Below, in pieces: positions 49,079 to 54,919 of a stretch of 64,000 bases of DNA. The position numbers and the translations under genes were made by a program. The notes below the pieces were generated by a model, which saw only the letters and a list, made by a program, of their open reading frames with translations, was not told the origin of the DNA and ran no database searches. The DNA comes from Halosolutus halophilus (GTDB lineage Archaea > Halobacteriota > Halobacteria > Halobacteriales > Natrialbaceae), in NCBI RefSeq assembly GCF_022869805.1, contig NZ_CP094974.1, positions 1-64,000 on the forward strand. Direction: 5' to 3'. Each line of letters begins with the position of its first letter. Position 1 is the first letter of the stretch.

Positions 49079-50465
49079 ACGGCCATCGGCACCGACGCTC
49101 CCCATTATTATGCTTCCCCTATCGGCGCTCGTCGATCGCGCGCGGCCGCGAATCGCGTCATTGCCGGCGGCCCCGGAACCGTTTCGGCCCGCCGTCGTGG
49201 CCGTCACGTCCCGCTAATACCTCGTTGGGCCTGTCGCGCCGTCGGGTCGAGTCGGCGTCCTCCCGATTCCGGCCCCGAACGAGGGGATTTGATATAGCAG
49301 TATGGACTTCACCATCCGACGCTCTCGGCTGTCTGCACCGTTTCCTCCCGGATTCGCCGCCCGGACACCGGTCGTCCGGGCCGTACCGAGTGGTCTCGGT
49401 AGCCGTCGCCGTGGCCGATCACGCACGCCGGTTCGAGGCGATCGACACGCCCCGGATCCTCGCACTGGTGTGCCAACCGATCGGTTCCCGGACCGCATCG
49501 CTGGCAGCCCGAACACCTGGGGCCCGTGAACGGCCGGCCGTTTCGGTCAGCTCGCTTTTCCATCGATTCGCCCCGCCATCTCGTCGGCTCGGACTCACCG
49601 GATCCCGACCTGTTGGCGGTTCGCTACGACAGAGACGATCGCAGGCCGGTCGATCGCATCCGAGGACTGCGGGACGGATTCGATTGCGCCGTCGCGGGAC
49701 TCCGGTGCACCTGCGTTCGATGTCCCTCGTCTCCGTTCGATCGGGCCACCTCTCTGGCCCCGTGACGATCGGGTCCCGAACACGAGCCCTACCTGACGCG
49801 TGGAACCGGTTTTCGACGGCTAGAACCAGGGGTTCGTGGCCTCCGATCCCCAGTCAACGACCGGCCGATCGTTACGACGGGTGCCGGGTTCGGCTCTCGG
49901 ACGACAGATATCACGGTTCCACTGGCTCGCTCACGATACGGGGGGCGCCAGAAGACGACCCCACGCGCACCGCTCCATCCTCGACCGATCGCGCTCTTGA
50001 TCGATCGCGCGCGGCGACGTGCACTCGATTCGGCTACGGGTGGCTCGGTTCGAGGATCGATTCGGCTCCGATCGCCCAGCGGGTGGCCGACCGATCGGGT
50101 GTTGGCATCCGGGTCCGCCTGCGCTGTCGCTCGGTCCCGTCTATCGGTCAGCACGACCACTGCCGATCGGTCGGCGTCGGGGTCGGCAGTCGACGCTCCG
50201 GGCCTGTCTCGGTCGCAGGCTCCCCGCCGTCGGACGGCCGAGCGGTGTCGCTGGATCTCGCCAACTGCCGCGAGCATCGGCGAGGACGCCGTTTCCTTCC
50301 AGACCGACCAGTACCCAAACAGTAAATCACATATTGCGATATAGAATTGGGGGCTGCCAACCCAGTACTGAACCGGCTTGCCGAGAGTGGCCGTTCGGAC
50401 CACCGATCGACGGCCGGCACCGTCGTACGCACAGCCCGCGTCACGTACGCGGCACCTGGACTGAC
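49079..50465. other. Long region without a convincing gene
   Basis: About 1.4 kb. Frames of up to 366 codons are open on the plus strand and 301 on the minus strand, but their products are Arg/Ser/Pro-rich and lack the acidic character of every real gene here. The region is rich in GATC/CGATCG words. AT-rich DNA occurs at 50318-50346 (ATCACATATTGCGATATAG and flanks), a possible promoter. Though it lies next to an orc/cdc6-type gene, no typical origin-recognition repeats were recognised by eye. Confidence 0.45.
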
Positions 50466-50483
50466 TTTCGGAACTTTCGGAAG
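50466..50483. promoter_or_regulatory. Tandem TTTCGGAA repeats upstream of the orc gene
   Basis: Two exact 8-bp tandem units on a 9-bp period: TTTCGGAAC (50466-50474) and TTTCGGAAG (50475-50483). They are followed after 13 nt by the TATA-like CTTAAGG (about 50497-50503) and, 25 nt further, the GTG start at 50528. The same layout (TTCGGAAG, 13 nt, CTTATGG) occurs upstream of the polymerase operon. The two units also match ANTTTC (gACTTTC, aACTTTC), the hexamer reported for the crenarchaeal Orc1-2 damage regulon; that link is a hypothesis. Confidence 0.6.
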
Positions 50484-50527
50484 CGGCCCGCCGTGGCTTA
50501 AGGGGATCCAGCCAAAACAGGATACCC

Positions 50528-51553
50528 GTGATCGTCGACGGCCGCGTGCTGCGCGAGGACTTCGTCCCCAGCGAGGTGGTCCACCGCCACGACGAGGTGA
50601 ACCTCCTCTCGGAGACCCTGGAGCCGCTGCTGTACGATCGACGCCCGGATCCGGCGTTCCTGTTCGGGCCGACGGGCGTCGGCAAGACCTGCATCGCCCG
50701 GTACGCGCTCTCCCAGTTGCGCGAACAGGAGCCGTCGGTCGCGGTCGCCTACGTCAACTGCTGGCAGGAGTACACCCGGTTTCGCGTGCTCTACAGCCTG
50801 CTCGACTCGATCGGCCGGGCGGTCGACGTCCACCGATCGACGCCGAAGGACGAACTGTTCGGACGGCTGGACGAGGCGACCGACCGGCCGATCGTCGCGA
50901 TCCTGGACGAGGTCGACCAGCTAGAGGAAACGGCCGCGCTCTACGACCTCCACCGGCTCCGGCACGTCTCGCTCGTGTTGATCGCCAACCGCGAGGAGGA
51001 ACTGTTCGCGAGCTTCGACGATCGAGTCCGGTCGCGGCTGCGGGCCGGGACCCGGGTACAGTTCGACCGCTACGGCACCGACGAACTCGTCGCGATCCTC
51101 GCGGAACGGGCGAATCAGGGGCTCGAACCGGACGCGATTTCCGACGATCAGTTGCGGACGATCGCCGAGGCGGCGTCCGGCGACGCTCGCGTCGGCATCG
51201 GTATCCTCCGGTCGGCCGCCCGCCGCGCGGAGCGAGACGGGTGCGAGTCGATCACGGACGAGGTGCTCGAAGCGGCGATTCCGGACGCCCGGACGGCCAT
51301 TCGCCGCAAGACCGTGGAGGGACTGATCGAACACCAGCGCGTCCTCTACGACGTGATCGCCGAGGAAGGCGAGATCGAACCCGGTGACCTCTACGCCGAG
51401 TACGAGCGGCGGGTCGCGGACCCGAAGACGAAACGGACGCTACGGAACTACCTGACGAAGATGGTCCACTACGACCTGATCGAGGCCGTCGGCGAACGTC
51501 GCGGCCGAACCTACCGGCTCGTCGAGGACGAGGTCGACCGCGACTCGGACTAG
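50528..51553 (+). CDS. Orc1/Cdc6-family AAA+ ATPase
   Basis: A 341-residue AAA+ protein of the Orc1/Cdc6 family, starting at GTG 50528 (MIVDGRVLREDFVPSEVVHR). It has the N-terminal VPSEVVHRHDEVNLLSETLE (box II-like), Walker A GPTGVGKT (47-54), Walker B VAILDEVDQLE (about 123-133), sensor SLVLIANREEEL, and GDARVGIGILRSAARRAERD (sensor 2/lid). The C-terminal winged helix includes GEIEPGDLYAEYERRVADPK and TKRTLRNYLTKMVHYDLIEA. It is shorter than replication-type haloarchaeal Orc1 proteins. Together with the following operon and shared promoter repeats, it may act as a DNA-damage transcription regulator instead of an initiator. Confidence 0.88.
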   Translation: MIVDGRVLREDFVPSEVVHRHDEVNLLSETLEPLLYDRRPDPAFLFGPTGVGKTCIARYALSQLREQEPSVAVAYVNCWQEYTRFRVLYSLLDSIGRAVDVHRSTPKDELFGRLDEATDRPIVAILDEVDQLEETAALYDLHRLRHVSLVLIANREEELFASFDDRVRSRLRAGTRVQFDRYGTDELVAILAERANQGLEPDAISDDQLRTIAEAASGDARVGIGILRSAARRAERDGCESITDEVLEAAIPDARTAIRRKTVEGLIEHQRVLYDVIAEEGEIEPGDLYAEYERRVADPKTKRTLRNYLTKMVHYDLIEAVGERRGRTYRLVEDEVDRDSD

Positions 51554-51645
51554 GGGCGGCGATCGGCTCTTTTCGGAAATGCCGACCTCGATCAGCGAAT
51601 CGACCTACGACCGCCGGACAGCCGCTCACGTCGGTTTCCGACGAG

Positions 51646-51671
51646 TATCGGAATGTCGGAAGGTTCGGAAG
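51646..51671. promoter_or_regulatory. TCGGAA repeats upstream of the RecA-like/PolB operon
   Basis: Three units in tandem: TATCGGAAT (51646-51654), GTCGGAAG (51655-51662) and GTTCGGAAG (51663-51671). They are followed after 13 nt by the TATA-like CTTATGG (about 51685-51691), 24 nt before the ATG at 51715. A further TTTCGGAAA stands at 51571-51579, just after the orc gene. Spacing and surrounding bases (CGGCC...) match the orc promoter, pointing to one regulator for both. Confidence 0.6.
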
Positions 51672-51714
51672 CGGCCGTCCGACGCTTATGGACCGTCCGC
51701 GCGACCGTTCGCGT

Positions 51715-52368
51715 ATGCATCAGTTCGAACTCGACCCAGGGTTGACGCTCCTGCGGACGGAGTCGCCCCGATCGACGATCGTACACCGGCTGGCGTGCGG
51801 CCGGCTGGCCAACGCCGACGGCCCGGCCTACTGGATCGACGCGCGAAATACGGCCGCGACGCACGCACTGTACGACTGCGTCTCCCGGCCGCGCGTCCTC
51901 GACGACCTGAAGATCGCGCGAGCGTTCACCGCCTACCAGCACCACTCGCTGGTCCGGACCGTCACGCGGCGGGCGAGTCCCGACACCGACCTGCTCGTCG
52001 CGCCGAACGTCGCCGCCCTCTACCGGGACGACGACGTGGCCGAGTGGGAACGCGAGGACCTGCTGGCCGCGAGCCTGGAGACGCTGTCCGAACTGGGGCG
52101 GGTGCTCGACTGTCCCGTCCTCGTCACGAGCGCGACCGACGCCGACGGGAACCGGATCGCCGAGGTCGCCGAGACGACGATCGAGTGCGTCCGCACCCGC
52201 GAGGGCGTTCGCCTCGAGTCCGCGGACGGTGACCGGGTGACCGAGGGGTACTGGCACGGGGACTACTGGCAGACGACGATCCCCTACTGGGTCGATCTCT
52301 GCGGCGCCGTCGACGCGATCGATCCCGTCGCCGCCCACGATCGGGGGCTGCTGGAGGTGACCGGCTGA
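51715..52368 (+). CDS. RecA/RadA-like protein lacking the P-loop
   Basis: A 217-residue protein with the beta-alpha pattern of the RecA/RadA core. PAYWIDARNTAATHALYDCV resembles the strand after the P-loop (ALYIDTEGTF in RadA). VLDDLKIARAFTAYQHHSLV matches RNLEVARAYNSDHQ. LLVAPNVAALYRDDDVAEWE corresponds to LVVVDSLTALFR, and PVLVTSATDADGNRIAEVAE to the L2-like region. No GxxxxGKT is present, so it probably does not hydrolyse ATP. It may be a polymerase accessory, comparable in position to ImuA next to mutagenic polymerases. First gene of a three-gene operon. Confidence 0.7.
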   Translation: MHQFELDPGLTLLRTESPRSTIVHRLACGRLANADGPAYWIDARNTAATHALYDCVSRPRVLDDLKIARAFTAYQHHSLVRTVTRRASPDTDLLVAPNVAALYRDDDVAEWEREDLLAASLETLSELGRVLDCPVLVTSATDADGNRIAEVAETTIECVRTREGVRLESADGDRVTEGYWHGDYWQTTIPYWVDLCGAVDAIDPVAAHDRGLLEVTG

Positions 52369-52646
52369 TGGGCCGGACGAACTCCACCTACCGCGACGCC
52401 GTCCGGCGGATCGAGTCCGACTGGGAGCCGATGCGGCGGGCGCTGCGCCGGGAGTACCAGTCGGACTTCGATCGGCTCTTCGATCGGGCGCGATCGATCG
52501 CCGACGCGGCGGGCTACGCGAACCCGCGAGAACCCGAGCGGGCCGTGCTGCTGTCGGTCTTGCTCGCCCACGAGATCGAACTGCGACGGCTCCGGGCGGA
52601 ACTCGAGACGCATCCGGAAAGCGAACTCCCTGTCCCGGACGAATGA
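52368..52646 (+). CDS. Small coiled-coil protein (DUF8156-like)
   Basis: A 92-residue helical protein: MGRTNSTYRDAVRRIESDWE, PMRRALRREYQSDFDRLFDR and ARSIADAAGYANPREPERAV, ending with a heptad-like helix (HEIELRRLRAELETHPESEL). The ATG overlaps the upstream stop (TGATG) and its own stop overlaps the polymerase ATG (ATGA), so all three proteins are translationally coupled. It resembles the haloarchaeal DUF8156 family (recalled). It probably bridges the RecA-like protein and the polymerase, or binds DNA; this is inference. Confidence 0.75.
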   Translation: MGRTNSTYRDAVRRIESDWEPMRRALRREYQSDFDRLFDRARSIADAAGYANPREPERAVLLSVLLAHEIELRRLRAELETHPESELPVPDE

Positions 52647-54919
52647 GCCCGTACACGTTCGAGTTCGAGGACGGCATCGTCCGGCAGTGGCAACTCACCG
52701 AGACCGGTGCCAGGCCCGCGATCGTCGAGGACTACGCCCCGTCGCTGTTCGTCGGCGGCCCGAACGACGCGCTCGCGGACCTGCGGGACCGGCTCGGCTC
52801 GGATCCGAAGGTCGTCGCGACGGATTTCGAGCGGTGGGCGACCGACCTCCACGAGGCGCACGTCGACGATCGGTCCGAGGTGCTGCGCGTCGCCCTCGAT
52901 CGCGTCGGCGAGGTGCGGACGCTCGCCCGGGAGATCCGCGGCGTCTACGAGCGCGAAACCCACGCGCCCGGCACGTTTCGCCTGTACGACGTCGATCTCG
53001 CGCCCGGCTTTCGCTACTGTCTCGATCGGGGGCTCGATCCGGCACCCGGCCGCGACCTGCGAACGGTGCGACTCGCGCTCCCCGAGCCCGCGTTGGCCGA
53101 CGGCGTCGTCTCCGCGCTGGACGTCGACGGCGAGCCGATCGCCGCCGGCGGCACCGGCGACTCCGGCGACTCCGGCGCCGACGCGGGCGTGAACGCCGAC
53201 CCGGAACACGTGCTCCGCGCGCTCGCGAATCGTCTCGATCGCCGGGATCCGGACGTGCTCGTGGTGAGCCACGCCGACCTGATTCCGCTCCTCGACGAGC
53301 GGGCGTCGGAACTGGGTCTCGACGGGTTTCGGCTGGGCCGGCTCCCCGGCGTGACCCGACTCGCGAGCGAGAACACCTACGAGAGCTACGGACAGGTGGG
53401 TCACTCGCCGGCGCGGTACCGGGTTCCGGGCCGAGCGATCGTCGACGCGTCGAACAGTTTCCTCTGGCACCAGTCGGGGCTCGAGGGGATCCGCTACATG
53501 ATCGGACGGACGGGCCGACCGCTGCAGGAAGCCGCGTGGGGCAGCATCGGCACACTGCTGACGTCCCGCCAGATCCGGCTGGCGCGCACCGAGCGGGGCG
53601 TGCTCGCACCCTGGAACAAGTGGGACCCCGAGCGGTTCACCGACGTCGAGACGCTGCACGCAGCCGATCGGGGCGGATTCACGTTCTCGCCGGACGTCGG
53701 CTTCCACGAGACCGTCCACGAGATCGATTTCGCGTCGCTGTACCCGCGGATCATCTGCGAGCACAACGTGAGCCCGGAGACGGTCGGCTGTCGCTGCGAG
53801 GGCGCGATCGACTCGCACGCGGTCCCGGAACTGGGGTACGAGATCTGCGAGCAGGACGGCTTCCTTCCCGCAGTGCTCGACCCGCTGCTCGACGATCGGG
53901 CGGCGATCAAGCGGGAGTTGCGCGAGGACCCGCCGGAGGCGGCGGCCGATCGGCTCCGCGCGGAGTCGGGCGCGATCAAGTGGGTGCTCGTCTCCTGCTT
54001 CGGCTACCAGGGGTATCGCAACGCCAAGTACGGTCGGATCGAGTGCCACGAGGCTATCAACGCCTACGCGCGCGAGATCGCCCTCACGGCGAAGGCGCGT
54101 CTCGAGCAAGCCGGCTGGCAGATCGTCCACGGCATCGTCGACAGCCTCTGGGTGACGCCACGGTTCGACGACCCGGAGCCGATCGAGTCGGTCGTCGCCG
54201 CGGTCTCCGAGGCGGTGGGGATCCCGCTCGAGCACGACGGCCGCTACGAGTGGGTCTGTTTCGTTCCGCTGCGCGACTCGATCGCCGGCAGTGCGAACGG
54301 GACTCGACCGGGTACCGGTACCACGGACGGGGCGGGACCGAGTGCGGGTCCCCGGGGCGGCGTCGCGTCCGGCCCCGCGGGTGCGCTCACGAGGTACTTC
54401 GGCAAGCGCGAGGGCGGCGACTATCGGTTCCGCGGCATCGAACTCCGCCAGCGCAGCACGCCCGAGTTCGTCGCGGCGAGTCAGCGAGCCTTCGTCGAGA
54501 CGCTCGATCGGGAGCGCGATCCCGAGGCCGTCTGTGACGTGCTCGACCGACGGCTCGGCGAACTCCGGCGCGGTGCGGTCGATCCGACCGCCCTCGAGAT
54601 CACGAACCGCGTCTCGAAGTCTCTCGAGGCGTACCGTCAGCGGACCCACACCGTCGCGGCACTGCGGCGGTACGATCGCCACGGGATCGATCGGCGGCCC
54701 GGCCAGTCGGTCCGGTACGTCGTCGTCGACGACGACGCGCGCGGTCCCGAGCGGGTTCGCCTGCCGTTCGAGGACCCATCGACGTACGATCCGGGCTACT
54801 ACGCCGCCGCCCTGGTGCGAGCCTGCGAGAGCGTCGTCTCGCCGCTGGGCTGGGATCGGGCCCGGATCCGGGACTACCTGCGAGACGGGACGCCGGTACG
54901 ACTGTCGAGTTTCGCGTAG
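52643..54919 (+). CDS. polB2: PolB2-type family B DNA polymerase, exonuclease-deficient
   Basis: A 758-residue family B polymerase. Motif A is DFASLYPRI at 362-370 (D362), motif B lies at about 445-464 (IKWVLVSCFGYQGYRNAKYG, K446), and motif C is HGIVDS at 496-501, where the usual DTDS is changed to IVDS. The catalytic D500 remains, the first Asp is lost. In the exonuclease region no DxE (Exo I) or clear YxxxD (Exo III) is visible. Gly/Ser/Ala-rich linkers occur at about 168-184 and about 548-580. PolB2 proteins are divergent, damage-associated polymerases in archaea. Last gene of the RecA-like/DUF8156/PolB2 operon. Confidence 0.9.
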   Translation: MSPYTFEFEDGIVRQWQLTETGARPAIVEDYAPSLFVGGPNDALADLRDRLGSDPKVVATDFERWATDLHEAHVDDRSEVLRVALDRVGEVRTLAREIRGVYERETHAPGTFRLYDVDLAPGFRYCLDRGLDPAPGRDLRTVRLALPEPALADGVVSALDVDGEPIAAGGTGDSGDSGADAGVNADPEHVLRALANRLDRRDPDVLVVSHADLIPLLDERASELGLDGFRLGRLPGVTRLASENTYESYGQVGHSPARYRVPGRAIVDASNSFLWHQSGLEGIRYMIGRTGRPLQEAAWGSIGTLLTSRQIRLARTERGVLAPWNKWDPERFTDVETLHAADRGGFTFSPDVGFHETVHEIDFASLYPRIICEHNVSPETVGCRCEGAIDSHAVPELGYEICEQDGFLPAVLDPLLDDRAAIKRELREDPPEAAADRLRAESGAIKWVLVSCFGYQGYRNAKYGRIECHEAINAYAREIALTAKARLEQAGWQIVHGIVDSLWVTPRFDDPEPIESVVAAVSEAVGIPLEHDGRYEWVCFVPLRDSIAGSANGTRPGTGTTDGAGPSAGPRGGVASGPAGALTRYFGKREGGDYRFRGIELRQRSTPEFVAASQRAFVETLDRERDPEAVCDVLDRRLGELRRGAVDPTALEITNRVSKSLEAYRQRTHTVAALRRYDRHGIDRRPGQSVRYVVVDDDARGPERVRLPFEDPSTYDPGYYAAALVRACESVVSPLGWDRARIRDYLRDGTPVRLSSFA

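Follow-up and report, generated by a model that had tools for sequence, protein, structure and literature searches.

A tandem GGAA promoter element shared by an orc gene and the PolB2 operon of haloarchaea

Introduction

The bacterial mutasome ImuA-ImuB-DnaE2, a part of the LexA-controlled SOS response, places a RecA-like protein and the components of a polymerase for damaged templates under a regulator that also controls itself. To our knowledge, euryarchaea lack LexA and no general damage regulator has been established for haloarchaea. The closest described archaeal system is Orc1-2 of Sulfolobus, which turns on damage-responsive genes, occupies its own promoter as well and has ANTTTC as its element (PMC9738581). 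Among the polymerases of Sulfolobus, PolB2/Dpo2 alone is damage-inducible (PMC7390963). A neighbourhood of PolB2, an inactivated RadA with degraded ATPase motifs and, between them, the helical arCOG07300 protein of ~90 aa, joined in many euryarchaea by arORC2, is known from the sections of Makarova et al. (2014; PMC4104785) that deal with these families.

The locus described here lies in the window, the 64,000-nucleotide stretch that was analysed, which is the first 64 kb of a genome consisting of one contig of 5.06 Mb. It appears to contain the same four families as the published neighbourhood, and the likeness apparently extends to an additional two-gene RadA-like/arCOG07300 operon; in the sections mentioned, PMC4104785 describes gene linkage rather than a shared cis-element or spacing, or unlinked operons joined by a box. 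In the open-licence literature that we searched, we found no description of the cis-element or its spacing rule, of its occurrence across the class, of its presence on unlinked operons or of its split into chromosomal and plasmid types.

By analogy, the Orc protein of this locus would resemble Orc1-2 of Sulfolobus and Saccharolobus in being a non-initiator Orc1/Cdc6 paralogue with a winged helix that acts at promoters, including its own, and has a link to damage (PMC9738581). In contrast to the ANTTTC element of Orc1-2, the haloarchaeal box is a GGAA-N5-GGAA repeat held at a constant 14 nt from the TATA box, and in place of a global response we find about three promoters in this genome. The likeness is one of way of working; we do not claim membership, as ANTTTC fails as a conserved core. 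The likeness to the ImuA-ImuB-DnaE2 mutasome is one of logic only, since neither the regulator family nor the box is common to the two. If the model presented below is correct, an origin-binding protein has been turned into a gene regulator beyond Sulfolobus and, in the most extended form of the model, euryarchaea would have a counterpart of the SOS response built on a replication initiator, which bears on how they turn on lesion-tolerance genes. The combination of a precise cis-element, an adjacent candidate regulator and a regulon of three promoters makes the model directly testable in genetically tractable haloarchaea.

Genes and promoters of the locus

The features of the locus are listed in Table 1. 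The orc product is a complete Orc1/Cdc6 protein, comprising an AAA+ ATPase and a winged helix in the Orc1 fold. It matches TIGR02928 with 192 bits (cut-off 181) as well as Cdc6_lid (PF22703), and its Walker residues (G50-G52-K53-T54 and D127-E128) are invariant in 32 alignment rows. In the AlphaFold2 model (mean pLDDT 92) the AAA+ and winged-helix domains are intact, with the recognition helix at residues 302-314. The best Foldseek matches of the model are the DNA-bound archaeal Orc1 structures 2qby_A (E=6e-21) and 2v1u_A (E=2e-20), and the S. solfataricus chains among the PDB matches carry the names Cdc6 homologs 1 and 3. The other Orcs of the genome differ in sequence from the one at this locus and lie on very long tree branches.

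Table 1. Coordinates of the genes and promoter features in the window
Feature	Position	Strand	Remarks
Tandem Orc boxes before orc, TTTCGGAAC + TTTCGGAAG	50466..50483	+	Period 9
orc box 1, TTTCGGAAC	50466-50474
orc box 2, TTTCGGAAG	50475-50483
orc TATA-like box, CTTAAGG	50497..50503	+	14 nt past the last GGAA
orc	50528..51553	+	Orc1/Cdc6 family, 341 aa, GTG start at 50528, candidate regulator
Distal box, TTTCGGAAA	51571..51579	+	75 bp, measured between GGAA motifs, upstream of the first proximal operon box
Three tandem Orc boxes of the operon promoter, TATCGGAAT GTCGGAAG GTTCGGAAG	51646..51671	+
Operon box, TATCGGAAT	51646-51654
Operon box, GTCGGAAG	51655-51662
Operon box, GTTCGGAAG	51663-51671
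Operon TATA-like box, CTTATGG	51685..51691	+
RadA-like protein gene	51715..52368	+	217 aa from ATG 51715; start set by alignment with relatives
Small-protein gene	52368..52646	+	92 aa, position of arCOG07300; kept at that place in relatives
PolB2-type DNA polymerase gene	52643..54919	+	758 aa

The first protein of the operon gave weak, below-cut-off matches to Rad51 (PF08423, E=7e-4) and RadB (TIGR02237, E=2e-6), and no Walker A motif was recognisable on reading its sequence. The 92-aa protein had no match in Pfam and NCBIfam searches. The polymerase is well supported as PolB2 by NF004418 (E=2e-251; 836 bits versus a cut-off of 692). The closest named relatives in the searches came from Natrinema, Haloterrigena and other Natrialbaceae.

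A sequence-only reading of this DNA had proposed that orc and the polymerase operon share one promoter architecture. The repeats, spacers and TATA-like boxes that it gave are exact in the sequence: the last box lies 13 nt from the TATA-like box in both promoters, and the CGGCC that follows the last box is indeed common to the two. We add two refinements, namely the operon start codon at ATG 51715, from which relatives align, and the extra upstream box TTTCGGAAA. A start at 51688, taken from a mechanical list of open reading frames, was rejected because it falls within the TATA-like box and relatives align from the later ATG. Since the start codons lie 30-31 nt past the first base of the TATA-like box, both orc and the first gene of the operon are predicted to be leaderless. 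Upstream of the orc boxes we also note a stretch, GATAAAYC-N-ATA-GCGATAY-GAAT (window 50318-50346), which is conserved in many relatives at a variable distance from the boxes and may represent a divergent promoter or a small RNA.

The distal box of the operon promoter, with its GGAA at 51575, was absent from the earlier reading. At least one copy of TTTCGGAA is present distally in 29 of the 34 operon promoters with a recognisable tandem, and for 22 of these copies the distance to the TATA-like box is exactly 101-102 nt. Over all the fetched loci, TTTCGGAA has a frequency of 0.5 per kb, a value raised by real sites. In the window the distance to the TATA-like box is 110 nt because of the extra third repeat, and the 75 bp to the first proximal box match the relatives and amount to about seven helical turns. 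This constant spacing suggests bridging or wrapping: a box held at a near-fixed distance would let copies of Orc bridge or wrap the operon promoter.

Conservation of the element

The exact pattern TCGGAAN{2,3}TCGGAA has six matches in the 5.06 Mb genome, three of them inside the two promoters; the reversed pattern has none. A 33-mer, TCGGAA-N2-W-TCGGAA-N14-YTTA, was found with at most one mismatch in 63 of 121 genomes of the family, compared with 0/121 for the reversed control. When the orthologous loci from the family were fetched, oriented and placed in an anchored alignment, the boxes had 1.77 bits per position before orc (0.14 in the upstream flank) and 1.47 bits per position before the operon (0.27 in the upstream flank).

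Across the class the element takes the form GGAA-N4/5-GGAA-N14-NTTA, with the start codon about 30 nt further on. We surveyed 80 named haloarchaeal Orc loci, which span Haladaptatus, Halorientalis, Halorubrum, Halorussus, Haloferax, Natronomonas, Halosimplex and others. In 62 of them, the 80 nt that precede orc contain GGAA-N4/5-GGAA-N13/14-NTTA, against 13 of 10,338 control windows drawn from the same loci. Among these 62 boxed promoters the spacer is 14 in 59 and the gap is 5 in 54. RadA-like operons show identical geometry in many of the sampled loci and genera, and the orientation of the element is always the same. The shared architecture proposed from the sequence is thus fully supported and conserved class-wide, and the judgement that two such promoters are unlikely to arise by chance is borne out by the genome scan, the family scan and the class sample, all of which exceed their controls. 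We regard the tandem boxes as almost certainly a real promoter element.

The box is found before orc in most genera. It is missing, with orc itself kept, in genus g6 (four genomes), Natrialba, Halovivax KZCA124 and Natronoglomus, and in g6, Halovivax KZCA124 and Natronoglomus the operon is still boxed despite this loss. One feature of the earlier reading did not hold up as a conserved one: the match of the orc copies to ANTTTC recurs in 16 of 25 core orc promoters and 9 of 34 operon promoters, and outside the core clade in just 4 of 43 orc promoters. ANTTTC was rejected as the core of the element.

The regulon in the genome

The class-wide consensus has four exact matches in the 5.06 Mb genome (control, 1). 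Three are promoters, those of orc, of the PolB2 operon and of a second RadA-like/small-protein operon at 4,031,020, which was identified by tblastn. The fourth, at 641,433, is in a setting that is not promoter-like. An enrichment of damage genes had been predicted from the sequence, but the strict scan adds only the paralogous RadA-like/small-protein operon and the one non-promoter-like match. A global damage regulon was likewise rejected, as exact, relaxed and TATA-spaced scans return only orc, the PolB2 operon and the paralogous operon. The other tandem matches in the genome concern the bacteriorhodopsin gene, the vicinity of a tRNA or coding-like sequence, and single TTCCGGAA boxes gave nine scattered matches. 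With so few consensus promoter sites, the regulon is narrow, at about three promoters.

The probable regulator

We regard Orc as the probable regulator because the boxes lie in its own promoter, because it co-occurs with PolB2, because a plasmid-type Orc clade has its own boxes and because residue 314 is associated with box sequence. A close Orc is present in 67 of 70 PolB2-positive genomes and in 24 of 51 PolB2-negative ones (p=6e-10, with relatedness ignored). The plasmid-type clade is about 50% identical to the Orc of the locus, and its recognition helix and wing are changed; its boxes are TTTCCGGAAAC before orc, 14 nt from the TATA box, and a TTCCTGAAA..CGGAA pair before the RadA-like gene, also 14 nt from the TATA box. 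In 95 of 100 cases the residue at position 314, where the recognition helix ends, goes with the base at position -2 of GGAA, H being paired with T and Q with C. This covariation was rejected as independent proof, since the Fisher value (p=6e-18) ignores relatedness and there are two base switches on the tree; about two independent switches on the Orc tree indicate co-divergence by clade and do not prove contact.

The proposal that Orc regulates itself and the operon therefore has indirect support, from the boxed orc in most genera and from clades in which box and recognition helix have changed together, and this support is qualified by there being only about two independent switches and by the lineages that have lost the orc box and kept the operon boxes. 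Taken with the co-occurrence of the operon and the Orc1 fold with its winged helix, these data make Orc a likely regulator, with autoregulation. In our view the neighbouring Orc quite probably binds the boxes. For the fuller statement, that the adjacent Orc binds at the tandem boxes and acts as a promoter-specific regulator, our confidence is lower, and on balance we favour it.

The main alternative is that the boxes bind an unlinked transcription factor, either a general haloarchaeal regulator or a TFB variant, and that Orc is merely one of its targets. Such a factor would account for genomes G014 and G016, which keep a boxed plasmid-type operon and in which no Orc was found at E<=1e-70, for the persistence of the operon boxes where the orc box has been lost and for the presence of the element at SNJ2-type integrase loci. 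However, the targets in this genome are confined to orc and Orc-linked modules, Orc and the operon co-occur, and the box type tracks the Orc clade, even for plasmid copies that share a cell with the chromosomal type (for example in G115, with L063 and L245). We therefore consider an unlinked factor unlikely.

Several further observations concern the plasmid-type and other Orc genes. Plasmid-type Orcs are up to 99% identical between Natrinema, Haloarcula, Halorientalis, Haloplanus and Halobacterium (L243-L258 and plasmid records), which indicates that the Orc/PolB2 copy spreads by plasmids. At one locus (L179, genome G108) orc is a disrupted relic and PolB2 just a fragment, a joint decay of regulator and target. 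Another distant Orc-like gene, of 32% identity, has a perfect boxed promoter (L177; G115:C1:231150-233650).

Proposed mechanism

The data suggest that the Orc of this locus is a gene switch rather than a replication starter. Its winged helix would contact the repeats, at about -40 to -57 on the upstream side of the BRE/TATA region, and the protein would most likely activate by aiding TBP/TFB assembly; in most lineages this would include its own gene, in a positive feedback loop. Activation is favoured because the core promoter is not covered by the boxes and because the TATA boxes (CTTAAGG and CTTATGG) are poor; judged from this promoter layout, an Orc that does bind would probably activate rather than repress.

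The converse arrangement, in which Orc represses both promoters and is released on damage as LexA is, appears distinctly improbable. Autoregulation and a small regulon with a lesion-tolerance polymerase do resemble SOS logic, and some bacterial PolB2 operons carry lexA (PMC4104785). Against this, the boxes are upstream of the BRE/TATA region and overlap neither the core promoter nor the start, the TATA boxes are weak, and Sulfolobus Orc1-2 is an activator (PMC9738581).

It is highly improbable that the boxes are elements of a replication origin, similar to origin recognition boxes (ORBs), rather than promoter elements. Orc proteins bind repeats near their own genes, and the haloarchaeal ORBs resemble the boxes of this locus as repeated short GGAA-containing elements beside orc genes, with one reported ORB-like element containing CGGAAAC (PMC3528665). 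However, those ORBs are long inverted elements with a G-string at their end (PMC3528665), whereas the boxes of the locus are short direct repeats locked to a promoter, with a fixed spacing of 14 nt to the TATA box, some 30 nt from there to the start codon and a constant orientation. The element also occurs far from orc, ahead of RadA-like operons, and inverted G-string repeats are absent near orc. A search for an ORB family in the 1.3 kb before orc (49205-50530) gave only short or weak repeat pairs, and without repeated inverted ORB-like elements there is no sign of an origin there. Coincidence or a recent promoter duplication within the locus, which the 1.2 kb separation of the promoters and the identical stretch of sequence at the last box might suggest, has a negligible chance in view of the class-wide conservation and the absence of control matches in the family scan.

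Returning to Orc as an activator, its output would be Orc, the RadA-like protein, the arCOG07300-like protein and PolB2 made together, presumably as a lesion-tolerance module for stalled forks. DNA damage is our first guess at the signal because of the analogy with Sulfolobus Dpo2, and we rate the chances that Orc responds to DNA damage or stalled forks as about even. The table of UV-induced genes of Halobacterium NRC-1 contains radA1, rfa (RPA) and nrdJ, while orc and polB2 are absent from it (PMC1224876). The best model is that Orc activates itself and the PolB2 module in the manner of Sulfolobus Orc1-2 and through a different box. In its most extended form, which is put forward tentatively as somewhat less than an even prospect, this model makes an Orc1/Cdc6 paralogue the dedicated activator of a lesion-tolerance regulon found throughout the haloarchaeal class, with chromosomal and plasmid box specificities and a box adopted by SNJ2-type integrase loci.

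Other loci carrying the element

A further tandem, of period 8, lies at 4,521,586 at the head of a locus in which a conserved GC-rich leader is found together with a tyrosine integrase that shares 61% identity with the integrase of virus SNJ2. This SNJ2-type integrase locus (L190:8587-10314; genome 4,521,586-4,523,313) has the geometry of tandem box and TATA box. Thirteen integrase loci of other genomes carry the box (L150, L158, L159, L161-L163, L165, L169, L171, L172, L182, L187 and L188), and most share a GC-rich hairpin leader ending GTCCGCGGTCCCA...GAGACCATG. The integrase regions of five SNJ2-like viruses contained no element within four mismatches. Free viruses were rejected as carriers, as the 34 IMG/VR matches look like chance, come from phage contigs of lower GC content and lack the leader signature in every case. 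The SNJ2-type integrase loci are possibly mobile elements tuned to the Orc switch of the host.

The element was also observed at Orc loci of Natronorubrum, Halobellus and Haloferax (L304:2212-2856, L312:1073-1717 and L334:1271-1915, minus strand). There, a gene for a 215-aa exonuclease-like protein with the RNase H fold (PF13482) starts about 30 nt past GGAA-N5-GGAA-N14-NTTA, as does an ISH3-like transposase-like gene in the Orc loci of these genera. Exonuclease-like and transposase-like genes behind the same element indicate that other Orc clades may control other genes.
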